Shown here piece by piece: positions 32,657-39,414 of a DNA stretch of 64,000 bases. The translations under genes and the position numbers were made by a program. Within the stretch, counting starts at the first letter, position 1. Every line of letters starts with the position of its first letter. The notes below the pieces were generated by a model that was given only the letters and a program-made list of their open reading frames with translations, made no database searches and was not told the DNA's origin. The DNA is from Pseudofrankia inefficax (GTDB lineage: Bacteria > Actinomycetota > Actinomycetes > Frankiales > Frankiaceae). The stretch is taken from NCBI RefSeq assembly GCF_000166135.1, contig NC_014666.1:7750001-7814000 (forward strand), written 5' to 3'.

Positions 32657-34111
32657 TCAGGTGCCGGCGGTCCTGTTCCCGGCCGTCCGTCCCTTGCTCG
32701 ACCTGGTGGTCCTGGTCTTCGGTCCCGGCTGCTGTGTCCGGGCCGACGTAGTGTCCGGCGCCTCCGCCCCGTCAGGGAGGCCCCGCTCGTCCGGGACGCC
32801 CGCCTCGTGAGGGGCGTCCAGGTCGTCGTCTCGATCGTCCGCGCCCGCGGGACCGCCGTCAGCCCGTTCGCCGACCTCGCCGCCCTTCCGGGCCGTTGAT
32901 CCGCTCTCCGGTGCCTCGGCGGCGCCGTCGGCGGTCACCGGAATGATCAGCTGCGGCGCGGTCTCCGGCGCGTCGTCGCCGTCCGCGAGGTCGTCGTGGT
33001 ACGACGGCAGCCGCAGCGTGAACGTGGACCCCGCGCCCTCGGAGCTCCAGACGCCGACCGTGCCGCCGTGGTTGGTCACGATGTGCTTGACGATCGCCAG
33101 GCCCAGCCCGGTGCCGCCGGTCTCCCGGGACCGGGCCGGATCCGCCCGGTAGAAGCGCTCGAAGACGCGTTCCAGGTCCTTCTCGGCAATCCCTATGCCC
33201 TCGTCCGCGACCGAGATCTCCACCATGTCGCCGGCCGAGCGCACCCCGAGGCCCACCCGCGTGCCACGCGGCGAGTAGTTCACCGCGTTCTCCAGCAGGT
33301 TCGCCACCGCTGTCACCAACTGCGCCTCGTCGCCGAGCACGCCGGCATCGGTCTGTCCGATCACAGCCACCGAGATGCCGCGGGTCTGCGCGGCCAGCCG
33401 GTTGCGGTCCACCGCCTCGGCGGTGACGTTGTCGACCGCGACCGGCCGCAGCTCCGGCAGTGGGTCCGCGCCCTGCAGCCGGGACAGGTGGATGATCTCC
33501 TGGACGAGCCGGGCGAGCCGGGCGGACTCGTGCGTCATCCGGTCGGCGAACCGGCGGACCGCGACCGGGTCGTCGCTCGCGGCGTACACCGCCTCGGCGA
33601 GCACGTGCAGCGCGCCGACCGGGGTCTTGAGCTCATGGCTGATGTTCGCGACGAAGTCACGCCGGACGGCGTCCACCCGGCGGGACTCGGTGACGTCGTC
33701 GAGGATCACCGCGATGTGGCCGACGCCGCCGAGCGGCCTGGTCCGGACCCGGACGGCGAGCGGCTCCTGGTCCGGGCGCGGCCGGGTGAGCGGCGGTGGC
33801 GGCACCGGCGGCAGGTCCAGCTGGCCGTCCAGGCCGGCGCCGGCCCGGCGGGTGCGCCGGACGATGTCAGCGACGGACGGGACGCCGATCCGGTTGTCGA
33901 TCACCACACCCATCGCGCGGGCGGCCGGGTTCGCCATCACCACCTCGTCATGGGTGGTCAGCACGACCACCCCGGACGGCAACGCCGAGACCAGCCGGCG
34001 CAGCTGGTCGGCGGGCAGGGAGTCGGCGGACTCGTCGCCGGCGACCGCCGGCGGGCCCGGCCGGTCGTTCTCACGCAGGGATCCGGAGGGCGCGGGGCTC
34101 GGCGTGCTCAT
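32657..34111 (-). CDS. senX3: sensor histidine kinase SenX3, lacking the N-terminal membrane segments
   Basis: 484 residues. A PAS-like domain (about 45-150; LPSGVVVLTTHDEVVMANPA) precedes RRDFVANISHELKTPVGALH with the phospho-accepting His. LVTAVANLLENAVNYSPRG (N box), VADEGIGIAEKDLERVFERF and ETGGTGLGLAIVKHIVTNHG complete the ATPase. Mycobacterial SenX3 has two membrane helices before PAS; here the protein opens MSTPSPAPSGSLREND, all hydrophilic. ATG at 34111 has GGGAG eight bases upstream, so truncation by wrong start is unlikely. A disordered tail of about 100 Asp/Glu/Pro/Thr-rich residues ends in a basic patch. It must be cytosolic or recruited by another protein. Confidence 0.9.
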   Translation of the reverse strand: MSTPSPAPSGSLRENDRPGPPAVAGDESADSLPADQLRRLVSALPSGVVVLTTHDEVVMANPAARAMGVVIDNRIGVPSVADIVRRTRRAGAGLDGQLDLPPVPPPPLTRPRPDQEPLAVRVRTRPLGGVGHIAVILDDVTESRRVDAVRRDFVANISHELKTPVGALHVLAEAVYAASDDPVAVRRFADRMTHESARLARLVQEIIHLSRLQGADPLPELRPVAVDNVTAEAVDRNRLAAQTRGISVAVIGQTDAGVLGDEAQLVTAVANLLENAVNYSPRGTRVGLGVRSAGDMVEISVADEGIGIAEKDLERVFERFYRADPARSRETGGTGLGLAIVKHIVTNHGGTVGVWSSEGAGSTFTLRLPSYHDDLADGDDAPETAPQLIIPVTADGAAEAPESGSTARKGGEVGERADGGPAGADDRDDDLDAPHEAGVPDERGLPDGAEAPDTTSARTQQPGPKTRTTRSSKGRTAGNRTAGT

Positions 34112-34341
34112 CGGCGGTCTCCCGGGGAACACGACGGGGCCAGAACGGACACCGGACGCACGGACACCAGGCGCACAGCGGTCGATCTCGACACGGCGAC
34201 GCAGGCCGGTACGGACGGGATCGCGTACCGTAGCATGCTTGTCACGTCATTCACCGACCTGTCGCCCACGCGCCGAATGCTAGGTGTCGTGCGGCCCTCC
34301 GGGATCCGCCGAACGGTTCTCCACGGCGGTTCGTCGTCAGG

Positions 34342-34374
34342 TGTTCATCCCCGCTAACGTCTCCGTTCACCGGT
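34342..34374. promoter_or_regulatory. PHO-box-like direct repeat between senX3 and phoU
   Basis: Three 11-mers in register: GTTCATCCCCG, CTAACGTCTCC, GTTCACCGGTC. The first and third match the GTTCAYC core of Streptomyces PhoP boxes, which are 11-bp direct repeats, and RegX3 sites share GTTCACC. The site is in the 441-bp divergent region (34112-34552) that otherwise shows no gene; phoU has TTGACC at 34521 as a possible -35. Binding by RegX3 is inference. Confidence 0.5.
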
Positions 34375-34552
34375 CCGCGACTGGGTCGCCGCATCGTCAA
34401 CCCATCCGAAGACCAGCGATCTCGGGTCGACGAGTCCCGGGGCTATGACCAGGTGTGGCCGTACACGCGAAGCCGCGGTCGGTTGTGACTCGCCGGGCGG
34501 ATGCCAGGACCCGAACGGCCTTGACCGGTTTGATCAGAACAGGAGTCCGCCC

Positions 34553-35197
34553 GTGCGGGACGTCTTCCACGAGGAGCTCGAGGGCATCACGGTGTCCCTC
34601 GTCGAGATGAGCAGCATGGTCGCCTCGGCCATGGCCCGCGCGACCACCGCGCTGCTGGACGCCGATCTGCAGCTCGCCGAGCAGGTCATCACGGCCGACG
34701 AGACCGTCGACCTGCTCCGCAACGAGATCGAGGAGCGCGCGTTCGACATCCTCGCTCGCCAGGCGCCGGTCGCGACCGACGCCCGGGTGATCGTCACCAC
34801 CCTGCGCATCGTCGCCGACCTGGAGCGCATGGGCGACCTGGCGCTGCACGTCGCCAAGGTCGCACGCCGCCGTTACCCAGGCAAGGCCGTGCCGCCGGAG
34901 CTGACCGGCACCATCACCGAGATGGGCCAGGTCGCGCAGCGGATCGTCGCCAAGGCCGGCTCGGTCATCGCCAGCCGGGACACCGAGCTGGCCGCCGAGC
35001 TCGAGGCCGACGACGACGCGATGGACCACCTGCACCGGCAGCTGTTCCACATCCTGCTGGAGCGGGAGTGGACGCACGGCATGGAGGCGGCGATCGACAT
35101 CACGCTGTGCGGCCGCTTCTACGAGCGTTACGCCGACCACGCGGTCTCCGTCGCCCGCCGCGTCGTCTACCTCGTCACCGGCGAGAAGTCCGCCTGA
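34553..35197 (+). CDS. phoU: phosphate transport regulator PhoU
   Basis: 214 residues, all-helical with two PhoU repeats. VRDVFHEELEGITVSLVEMS opens repeat one; ITADETVDLLRNEIEERAFD and TTLRIVADLERMGDLALHVA carry the ExxxD metal-binding pattern; LCGRFYERYADHAVSVARR is the equivalent in repeat two. GTG at 34553 has AGGAG seven bases upstream. PhoU restrains phosphate-starvation signalling by the sensor kinase. It is divergent from senX3 and followed by a strong terminator. No pst genes are in the window. Confidence 0.95.
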   Translation: MRDVFHEELEGITVSLVEMSSMVASAMARATTALLDADLQLAEQVITADETVDLLRNEIEERAFDILARQAPVATDARVIVTTLRIVADLERMGDLALHVAKVARRRYPGKAVPPELTGTITEMGQVAQRIVAKAGSVIASRDTELAAELEADDDAMDHLHRQLFHILLEREWTHGMEAAIDITLCGRFYERYADHAVSVARRVVYLVTGEKSA

Positions 35198-35378: not shown

Positions 35379-36128
35379 TCAGCGCGCCTTCGAGCGGCTC
35401 TTCCCTTGGGCGGCTACGGCGGCGGCGGCCAGCTCGGCGGCGTCCGGGTCGAGGTAGGCGGACGAGATGACCTTCAGGTCGTCGTCCAGCTCGTAGCGCA
35501 GCGGGATCCCGGTGGGGATGTTCAGCGCGGCGATGTCGGCGTCACCGATGCTGTCCAGGTGCTTGACCAGCGCGCGTAGCGAGTTGCCGTGGGCCGTGAC
35601 GAGCACCGTGCTCCCGGCCCGCAGGTCAGGCACGATCGCGTCGTACCAGTACGGAAGCATCCGGACGACGACGTCCTTGAGGCACTCGGTCGCCGGGATG
35701 AGATCGGGCGCGAGCTCGGCGTACCGGTCGTCGACGCCACTTTCCTGGCCCGGTGTGATGTCCGGCGGCGGGGTGTCGTACGAGCGGCGCCAGAGCATGA
35801 ACTGCTCCTCGCCGAACTTCTCCAGCGTCTCGGCCTTGTCCCGGCCCTGCAGGTCACCGTAGTGGCGTTCGTTGAGCCGCCAGCTGCGCCGCACCGGGAT
35901 CCACAGCCGGCCGGCGGCGTCGAGGGCCAGCCAGGCCGTGCGCATCGCGCGGGTCAGCACGGACGTGTGCACGACGTCAGGCAGCACGCCGGCCTCGCGC
36001 AGCAGCTCACCGCCGCGGGTGGCCTCCTTGACGCCCTTCTCGGACAGGTCGACGTCCACCCAGCCGGTGAACAGATTCTTCTGGTTCCAGGTGCTTTCGC
36101 CATGGCGGAGCAGGACGAGGGTCGGCAT
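35379..36128 (-). CDS. gpmA: 2,3-bisphosphoglycerate-dependent phosphoglycerate mutase
   Basis: 249 residues; interconverts 3- and 2-phosphoglycerate in glycolysis. [20 protein letters not shown] holds the catalytic His, [20 protein letters not shown] the substrate loop, and [20 protein letters not shown] the second His. Length and motifs match the dPGM family throughout. ATG at 36128. Convergent with phoU. Upstream, the 435 bp to pabC contain the candidate structured RNA, whose terminator ends about 130 nt before this start. Confidence 0.96.
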
Positions 36129-36254
36129 AGGGCGATCCTGCCCGCTCGGGCCGGCGTAGGGCCAGATCTCGTTTCGCCGTTTCCCGCACAGTCCCGCGGT
36201 CCGACGGCCTGACGGACCTCATCGGGGCAGGTCCCGGGGCGTGGCCGGCCCGGA

Positions 36255-36420
36255 ACGTGAAAACCCCCGGGTTGCTCCGCGCCCGCAGAAGCGGTGCGCG
36301 GGCCGTCGGGACTGAACGACGGCACCCGGGGGCCCGGTGACTGCCTGGTACTCGCCGGCCGGTGCCCTCAGGGACACCAAGGAGGTGAGCACAAGGAGAC
36401 CGGCCTAGCTGACAGTCACC
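36255..36420 (-). ncRNA. candidate structured small RNA or leader between pabC and gpmA
   Basis: Read on the minus strand. Domain 1 is closed by GGTGACTG/CAGTCACC (36413-36420 with 36336-36343) and contains GGCCGGT/ACCGGCC and a GGTG(T)CCC hairpin. Between them the single-stranded stretch carries CUCCUU twice, including UCACCUCCUU, identical to the 16S anti-Shine-Dalgarno. Domain 2 is a Y-shaped terminator: 9-bp stem (36324-36332 with 36264-36272) enclosing a 6-bp hairpin with 8-nt loop and a 10-bp hairpin with a TTCT loop, followed by TTTT. Just upstream AGGAGGTG (about 36452-36461) could pair with the anti-SD loop. No Rfam family was recognised. Confidence 0.55.
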
Positions 36421-36563
36421 TCACGAGTCCAACTACTACACAAGTCTGGACCACCTCCTCTCCCGTGTACCGACGACGCTACGCGCGACCCGGGTGGGTG
36501 GGCAACGCATTTTTCGCGGGTCACCTGGCCGGGGCTCGCGGACGCCTGGCCACCGGGCCTTCG

Positions 36564-37672: not shown

Positions 37673-38224
37673 ATGCCGCCCGACGTCTATGGGCCGCACA
37701 GCCATGGATCATCCGGCCACGGTCTGCGCGGCGTGTCGACCGATACCGCCGTGCCGGCCGACTCCGCGTCGCCCGGCCCCGCGGCGCCGGGCGACGAGTC
37801 GCGCGAGGACTGGCAGGTCCGGCTGCGCGGCCGGGGCTACCGGCTCACGCCGCAGCGCCAGCTGGTGCTGGAGGCCGTCGCGAAGCTGGGCCACGCGACG
37901 CCCGAGGCGATCGTCACCGAGGTCCGCCGGACCGCGACCGCCGTGAACATCTCGACCGTCTACCGCACACTCGACCTGCTCGAGGATCTCGGGCTGGTGT
38001 CGCACGCGCACCTCACCCACGGAGCCCCGACCTATCACGTCACCGGCCATGACCGGCATATCCACCTGGTCTGCGGCGCGTGCGGCGCGATCAGCGAGCT
38101 GTCCCCCGACCGGCTGGCCGGGCTGGTCGACGACCTGCGCCGGGAGCTCGGCTTCACCGTGAACGTCGACCACGTCGCGCTGGCGGGCCGGTGCGCGGAC
38201 TGTTCTGCCCATGGCGAGGGTTGA
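37673..38224 (+). CDS. Fur-family metalloregulator
   Basis: 183 residues. The winged helix is YRLTPQRQLVLEAVAKLGHA through NISTVYRTLDLLEDLGLVSH. HDRHIHLVCGACGAISEL gives the His-rich metal site and first CxxC, and CADC near the end completes the structural zinc pair. The first 45 residues are a disordered extension absent from most Fur proteins; GTG at 37733 would remove 20 of them. ATG at 37673 lies seven bases after TAGACT, a good -10, so the mRNA may be leaderless. Which metal it senses is not clear; FurB/Zur and Fur-type readings are both possible. Confidence 0.88.
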   Translation: MPPDVYGPHSHGSSGHGLRGVSTDTAVPADSASPGPAAPGDESREDWQVRLRGRGYRLTPQRQLVLEAVAKLGHATPEAIVTEVRRTATAVNISTVYRTLDLLEDLGLVSHAHLTHGAPTYHVTGHDRHIHLVCGACGAISELSPDRLAGLVDDLRRELGFTVNVDHVALAGRCADCSAHGEG

Positions 38225-38232
38225 CTAGAGGT

Positions 38233-39414
38233 ATGAGCGACGCCGCCACTGCCTCCGACCTGACCGCCACCGCCGGCTACCGGTCGCCGTTGCTCGGCCT
38301 GCCCGGCGCGGTCGCCGCGGACGGCGTCGACGCGGGGGTGGCCGCCCACTACGGCGACCCCCTGCGGGAGCAGCGCCTGGCCTCGACCGGCGCGGTGCTG
38401 GTGGACCGCTCGCACCGCGGCGTGGTCCGCGTCACCGGGCCGGACCGGCTGACCTGGTTGCACAGCCTGACCTCGCAGCATCTGAGCGCGCTGCGTCCGC
38501 TGCGCGGCACCGAGGCGCTGCTGCTGTCCCCGCATGGCCACGTCGAGCATCACCTGGTGCTCGCCGACGACGGCCAGGCGACCTTGATCGACGTCGAGCC
38601 GGCCGGCGACGCCTCCAGCGGCGCGGTCGCGCTGACCCGCTTCCTGGAGTCGATGCGCTTCCTGCTGCGGGTCGAGCCGGCGGACGTGACGGCGGCGACG
38701 GCCGTGCTGTCGCTGGTGGGCCCGCAGGCCGCCGCGACGGTCGCCCAGGCACTGGGCGCAGACGCGGCGGACGTGCCGGCCGACTGGGCGGCGCCCACGG
38801 GTGACGGGGCCGCGGGACTGCCGGCGGAGGCCGGTCGCTACCCGGTCGCGCGGTTCGGGCCGGACGTGCTGGCCCGCCGGATGCCGTACGGCGTCGATCT
38901 GCTGATCGAGCGGTCCGGGCTGGCGTCGGTCGCGGAGCGGCTGCGCGCCGCCGGCGCGACGGTGGCCGGGCTCGACGCGTTCGAGGCGATCCGGATAGCG
39001 GCCCAGCGCCCCCGGCTCGGGGCCGACACCGACCACCGCACGATCCCGCACGAGGTCGGCTGGCTCACCGGTGCCGTGCACCTGGACAAGGGCTGCTACC
39101 GAGGCCAGGAGACGGTCGCCCGGGTGCACAACCTCGGCCGGCCGCCGCGCCGGCTGGTCCTGCTGCACCTCGACGGCGCGGTCGCCGCGCCGGGCTCGCC
39201 GGTGACGACCGCCGGCCGGCAGGTCGGCTTCGTCGGCTCGTCCCGCATGCACGCGGAGCTGGGCCCGGTGGCACTGGCCATGGTGAAGAGGTCCATTCCG
39301 GACGACGCGCCACTGGTCGTCAACGACCCGGACGGCCACGAGGTCGCGGCCCAGATCGATCCCGACTCCGGCCCCGTCCGGCCGGATCGCCCCGCCGGCC
39401 ACCTGTTGCGCTAA
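38233..39414 (+). CDS. ygfZ: YgfZ/GcvT-like folate-binding protein
   Basis: 393 residues. GVVRVTGPDRLTWLHSLTSQ begins the GcvT-like fold, LSPHGHVEHHLVLADDGQ follows, and HLDKGCYRGQETVARVHNLG carries the YgfZ signature KGCYxGQE with its reactive cysteine. YgfZ binds tetrahydrofolate and helps maintain iron-sulfur enzymes. ATG at 38233, nine bases after the fur stop, with AGAGG upstream: fur and ygfZ are likely one transcript. Pairing with divergent pabC supports a folate/Fe-S theme. Confidence 0.93.
   Translation: MSDAATASDLTATAGYRSPLLGLPGAVAADGVDAGVAAHYGDPLREQRLASTGAVLVDRSHRGVVRVTGPDRLTWLHSLTSQHLSALRPLRGTEALLLSPHGHVEHHLVLADDGQATLIDVEPAGDASSGAVALTRFLESMRFLLRVEPADVTAATAVLSLVGPQAAATVAQALGADAADVPADWAAPTGDGAAGLPAEAGRYPVARFGPDVLARRMPYGVDLLIERSGLASVAERLRAAGATVAGLDAFEAIRIAAQRPRLGADTDHRTIPHEVGWLTGAVHLDKGCYRGQETVARVHNLGRPPRRLVLLHLDGAVAAPGSPVTTAGRQVGFVGSSRMHAELGPVALAMVKRSIPDDAPLVVNDPDGHEVAAQIDPDSGPVRPDRPAGHLLR

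Follow-up and report, generated by a model that had tools for sequence, protein, structure and literature searches.

The closest described relative of the RNA analyzed here is Ms_IGR-5 (Rfam RF02471), described as an actinobacterial family, of which Li et al. 2013 is reportedly the founding paper. Three further systems are comparable in part. The 6C RNA (RF01066) and B11 are also actinobacterial sRNAs whose business end is Shine-Dalgarno (SD)/anti-SD pairing. By analogy only, and with no homology implied, tmRNA is likewise a structured RNA that meets the ribosome and has a pseudoknot and a short ORF. Finally, leader-peptide attenuators have a terminator placed after a short ORF that overlaps an alternative RNA structure. 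As for Ms_IGR-5 itself, the accessible parts of the respective papers report its detection in Mycobacterium smegmatis (PMC10454040), RNA-seq support in Streptomyces lividans (PMC8079986), an sRNA transcript unit in S. avermitilis (PMC8780764), and ribosome-protected reads for the homologues of M. abscessus and M. smegmatis, a signal that bacterial non-coding RNAs commonly show (PMC4974804). As far as its accessible text goes, the open literature naming Ms_IGR-5 or RF02471 mentions neither an ORF nor pairing with 16S, and neither a pseudoknot nor a function.

Here, we analyzed a window of 64,000 nucleotides from Pseudofrankia inefficax, within which a candidate structured RNA had been proposed from the sequence. 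In an Rfam search with cmscan, exactly positions 36468-36255 of the minus strand (36255..36468) matched RF02471 over the complete model (1-184) with 77.8 bits, against a gathering threshold of 45. The 5' end, the inner domain and the terminator all correspond to the family, and both the terminator hairpin and the conserved 5' block GGAGGUGG...GUGAGGUG are found at the locus. Further, the fold was more stable than 200 of 200 shuffled sequences (z = -3.8). The structured RNA of this locus is real, and had been catalogued before as the actinobacterial sRNA Ms_IGR-5, while no Rfam match to 6C RNA was obtained within the window. Comparison of homologues shows complementarity to 16S rRNA, a mini-ORF, an outer stem (P1), a pseudoknot, a promoter and independence from neighbouring genes; the ORF, the 16S complementarity and the pseudoknot are additions to the Rfam alignment and structure as displayed. 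This suggests that the RNA is not simply non-coding and probably acts on ribosomes. The 16S-tail complement, the mini-ORF, and P1 with the pseudoknot are new with respect to the searchable and partly accessible literature, which does not prove their absence from the literature as a whole.

The RF02471 model matched 249 of 395 sampled Actinomycetes genomes (approximately 63%) and 57 of 297 sampled genomes of the phylum. The homologue set comprised 181 loci from whole genomes and at least about 110 from a pattern scan of named genomes, and 290 unique sequences were left once duplicates and chance matches, such as L261, L280 and L301 from the pattern scan, had been removed. Four IMG/VR pattern matches that might have indicated carriage by phages lay in open reading sequence and lacked the stop, and were likewise discarded as chance. 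BLAST searches of phages and plasmids gave no match to the RNA.

Positions 6-23 of the RNA, GGAGAGGAGGUGGUCCAG (36446..36463, minus strand), contain the SD and form 18 contiguous base pairs, three of them G-U, with the organism's own 16S 3' tail. The 16S of all three rRNA operons of the genome ends in CUGGAUCACCUCCUUUCU, the exact mature 3' end being presumably that known in general for actinobacterial 16S. All 18 nt of the tail are paired, at -33.6 kcal/mol, and the next independent site for the tail reaches only -23.4 kcal/mol, leaving this as the best site of the window. Exactly four copies of the core pattern GRRAGGAGGTGRTCC occur in the 8.8-Mb genome, three as the antisense of the 16S ends and one at the RNA locus; the antisense of 16S itself aside, the RNA carries the best match (as a complement) to the 16S rRNA 3' end in the genome. 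In the family, 16-20 contiguous pairs with the tail, G-U pairs counted, were found in 179 of 181 homologues.

A very strong SD could by itself serve ordinary high translation. The segment might also be a decoy for C-rich sRNAs such as 6C/B11, or an antisense regulator of mRNAs, with any ribosome contact incidental. C-rich sRNAs are established in Actinobacteria, and GGAGGUGG would pair with their loops; we nevertheless consider this unlikely, given that the whole 16S-tail complement is kept, GUCC included, along with a correctly spaced ORF, neither of which a decoy needs. The polarity is also opposite to that of 6C/B11, as the Ms_IGR-5 family keeps the SD side, directed at 16S.

The preliminary description had rightly singled out a sequence related to the 16S tail, but placed the emphasis on an anti-SD mimic. 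What the family conserves is the other strand of that pairing, the extended SD, which the description had treated only as a switch partner. The elements it named are all there: UCACCUCCUU (36379..36388, minus strand) is identical over ten bases to the organism's own 16S tail and is the only such 10-mer of the window (0.04 expected by chance), a second CUCCUU lies at 36393..36398 of the same strand, and AGGAGGUG is found upstream, within 36463-36446. The loop said to expose the mimic is not simply open, since in the minimum free energy (MFE) structure CACC and GGUG pair into a small hairpin whose loop contains UCCUU. Forcing the SD to pair with the mimic gave -110.1 compared to -115.4 for the MFE, a cost of about 5 kcal/mol, in keeping with the suggested on/off switch as far as this one sequence is concerned. 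Across relatives, however, the second CUCCUU is not conserved, only 2 of the 34 Micromonosporaceae retain UCACCUCCUU, and 5 of 181 homologues have CACCUCC. An anti-SD loop therefore cannot be the conserved function, and the single-stranded C-rich loop typical of mRNA-targeting sRNAs is not a conserved feature of the family. We thus regard it as very unlikely that such a loop blocks the ribosome sites of mRNAs under the control of the RNA's own AGGAGGUG; judged by conservation, the mimic is a local, idiosyncratic feature of the species group and not a family function.

Downstream of the SD lies a mini-ORF of 12 codons plus stop, UUG UGU AGU AGU UGG ACU CGU GAG GUG ACU GUC AGC UAG (36405..36443, minus strand), whose start is present in 290 and whose stop is present in 288 of the 290 homologues. 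The start codon is located 7-13 nt past GGAGG in every one of them. UUG is the commonest start family-wide (136 of 290), followed by AUG (102), GUG (27), CUG (16) and AUC/AUU/ACG (9), where CUG and AUC/AUU/ACG were taken as starts only when AUG, GUG and UUG were all missing. The 25 members on CUG, AUU, AUC or ACG combine starts that are unusual for bacteria with an extreme SD. In the 288 homologues with a stop, it stands at one fixed codon, as UAG (235), UGA (34) or UAA (19). The ORF has 12 codons in 229 homologues and mainly 13-15 in the remainder; its length varies by whole codons, with the spacing between SD and start free to vary. Between the SD and GAG, 4 of 2753 in-frame codons were stops, whereas the two alternative frames had 201 in 2897 and 450 in 2967. 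GAGGUG served to anchor the search, so that its invariance carries no weight. Because RNA structure constrains a large part of the ORF as well, coding is visible chiefly in the start and stop codons, in codons 2-4 and in the length. Start, frame and stop are all conserved, as in a dual-function RNA, and the mini-ORF would be translated in vivo.

A small mRNA with the 12-residue peptide as its functional product would likewise have a conserved ORF with alternating start and stop codons, and the peptides do share a recurrent residue pattern, M-xxx-x-T-x-E-V. This seems decidedly unlikely, though, because the third positions of codons 2-4 are no more variable than the first and second, and the third base of codon 12 is the most conserved; selection at the amino-acid level, expected for a dual-function RNA, is not visible in the variability of codon positions. 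The E-V of the pattern is accounted for by P1/GAGGUG and its T by the pseudoknot, and the amino-acid sequence is not conserved past the RNA constraints. As the peptide is not conserved, translation itself seems to be selected.

With regard to the fold, the 8-bp outer stem and the Y-shaped terminator with a TTTT tail that had been described earlier were both recovered. P1 pairs GGUGACUG (36413..36420, i.e., 36420-36413 as read on the minus strand), which covers ORF codons 8-11, with CAGUCACC (36336..36343, or 36343-36336), an arm supported by both the fold and covariation. Across the family, P1 (GGUGRCUG/CAGNCACC) shows compensatory changes, e.g., GGUGGCUA/UAGCCACC, and at two informative pairs 3 of 3 and 4 of 4 co-changes on the tree preserve pairing, the tree being a rough one drawn from the RNA region itself. 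In L253 and L287 (Tsukamurella), which represent a minimal natural version consisting of SD, ORF, P1 and terminator, the variable inner domain is missing and P1 is one long hairpin closed directly around the stop codon (GGUGGCCGCCGCC UGA CGGCGGUCGCCCACC).

The pseudoknot, missing from the Rfam model, is formed family-wide by GGACN of the ORF and NGUCC of the terminator loop. In the window, its 5' strand is GGACU in ORF codons 5-6 (nt +14 to +18; 36426..36430, minus strand), covarying with AGUCC in the loop of the first terminator hairpin (36309..36313, minus strand). Since neither strand pairs in the MFE structure of the window, the pseudoknot can be accommodated at no cost. A C-G/U-A pair showed nine branch co-changes, with pairing always kept (null mean 0.6, maximum 4 in 4000 trials), and in distant members the sequence is swapped altogether (CGACC/GGUCG, UCGAUC/GGUCGA, UGGACC/GGUCCA). 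A fifth pair (N-N) is enriched, at 165 of 229 vs. 92 by shuffling, but its eight co-changes on the tree are no excess over a null of seven. A 5' hairpin of GUCC/GGAC that would hide the SD is not claimed; its extra closing pair was mildly enriched (121 of 275 vs. 101 ± 5 shuffled, figures uncorrected for the tree).

The terminator (36260..36332, minus strand) is a three-way structure in which 36332-36324 pairs with 36272-36264 and encloses two hairpins, followed by UUUU at 36263-36260; the Rfam structure also contains a terminator hairpin. A motif resembling TTCCGG/GTCCGG is found 6-8 nt past the terminator stem in 94 of the 231 homologues with a located terminator, here at about 36240-36259 (minus strand), and might act in termination or offer GGAC a further sequence to pair with.

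Upstream of the RNA, a putative -35 element TTGCCC (36500..36505, minus strand) is separated by an 18-nt spacer from the -10 element TAGCGT (36476..36481, minus strand), which would place the transcript start at about 36468. TANNNT lies 20-27 nt ahead of GGAGG in 263 of 289 homologues vs. 3 of 287 at random offsets, and 214 of the 263 homologues having a -10 also carry TTG with a 16-19 nt spacer. In contrast to this conserved promoter, the neighbours differ, and the RNA therefore appears to be either trans-acting or a self-contained unit. The gene pabC is found upstream also in Mycobacterium. On the 3' side, gpmA starts at 36128, about 130 nt past the terminator end, and occupies this position only in Micromonosporaceae. 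Elsewhere an unrelated gene comes next, often in convergent orientation. This is the case for a gene of the PNPOx type in Streptomyces and for one encoding a heme-binding barrel in Mycobacterium and Nocardia; the neighbour is convergent in Deltaproteobacteria too, and HEAT-repeat genes are among the convergent neighbours.

Of the two options in the preliminary description, an independent RNA or an attenuator of gpmA, the comparison bears out the first, pointing to an independent transcription unit that has a promoter and a terminator of its own. A role in cis, as leader or attenuator for the gene that follows (here gpmA), is extremely improbable: mini-ORF, stem and terminator do resemble translational attenuators, and gpmA does follow in Micromonosporaceae, but no gpmA lies downstream outside this family and, unlike in leader-peptide attenuators, homologues share no regulated downstream gene and often face a convergent neighbour. 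In the wider surroundings, where names were given by inspection, two ORFs are found beyond gpmA, a sensor-kinase-like one on the minus strand (32657-34132) and a PhoU-like one on the plus strand (34445-35197); the region 32657-35197 agrees with the expected senX3/phoU neighbourhood. A Fur-like regulator ORF (37673-38224, plus strand) is closely followed by a GcvT/YgfZ-like ORF within 38080-39414 (plus strand), also named by inspection.

The distribution of the RNA appears to extend beyond the phylum to which RF02471 has been assigned. Metagenome-assembled genomes of Acidobacteria (L267, L289, L321), Deltaproteobacteria (L260, L319), Spirochaetia (L314), Nitrospinae (L278), Sumerlaeota (L249) and Zixibacteria (L281, with an Rfam match of 55.9 bits) contain RNAs with the same order of elements, namely promoter, 15-18-bp 16S complement, start, ORF, stop and terminator. 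The promoters of these copies carry TTGA or TTGCC and an AT-rich -10. In both Deltaproteobacteria a laccase-domain gene adjoins the RNA upstream (by inspection, with Pfam confirmation in L319 only), and this common neighbour disfavours mis-binning for the two, whereas for the other assemblies mis-binning is possible. Recurrence of this layout in other phyla points to an element that is old and general.

Taken together, we favour, with somewhat better than even confidence, an independent RNA that engages ribosomes, is translated, and has its fold reset when its own mini-ORF is translated; from the features above we infer 30S capture, the switch, the physiological output and a function in trans. 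The RNA of about 214 nt, made from its own transcription unit, would engage ribosomes by pairing its 5' end with the entire single-stranded 16S 3' tail, far past a normal SD, and this pairing would set the 30S subunit on the start codon of the 12-codon ORF, often a weak one (UUG; CUG/AUU/AUC/ACG). As long as no ribosome elongates, codons 5-6 would be held in the pseudoknot with the terminator loop and codons 8-11 in P1. The mRNA entry of the 30S subunit is at about nt +14 of an ORF, which is where the pseudoknot begins, and a bound 30S would face it there. Elongation to the fixed stop would have to open both pseudoknot and P1, and hence translation of the mini-ORF, and not the peptide, would be what switches the RNA from a compact form to an opened one and back. 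In contrast to tmRNA, there is no visible tRNA-like end, and the RNA has SD pairing and a start codon of its own.

The likeliest output would be capture or titration of 30S subunits via the anti-SD, tuning SD-dependent vs. leaderless initiation or reporting free 30S. Leaderless mRNAs are abundant in Actinobacteria. More tentatively, and with less than even confidence, what has been filed as an actinobacterial sRNA may be a widespread class of bacterial RNAs that captures 30S by the complete 16S 3' tail, is reset via its mini-ORF and pseudoknot, and controls SD-dependent vs. leaderless translation or reports free 30S. If so, a functionally unexplained sRNA present in about 63% of the sampled Actinomycetes, mycobacteria and streptomycetes included, would target the ribosome, and occupation of the anti-SD by such an RNA would offer a concrete means of shifting translation between classes of mRNA.
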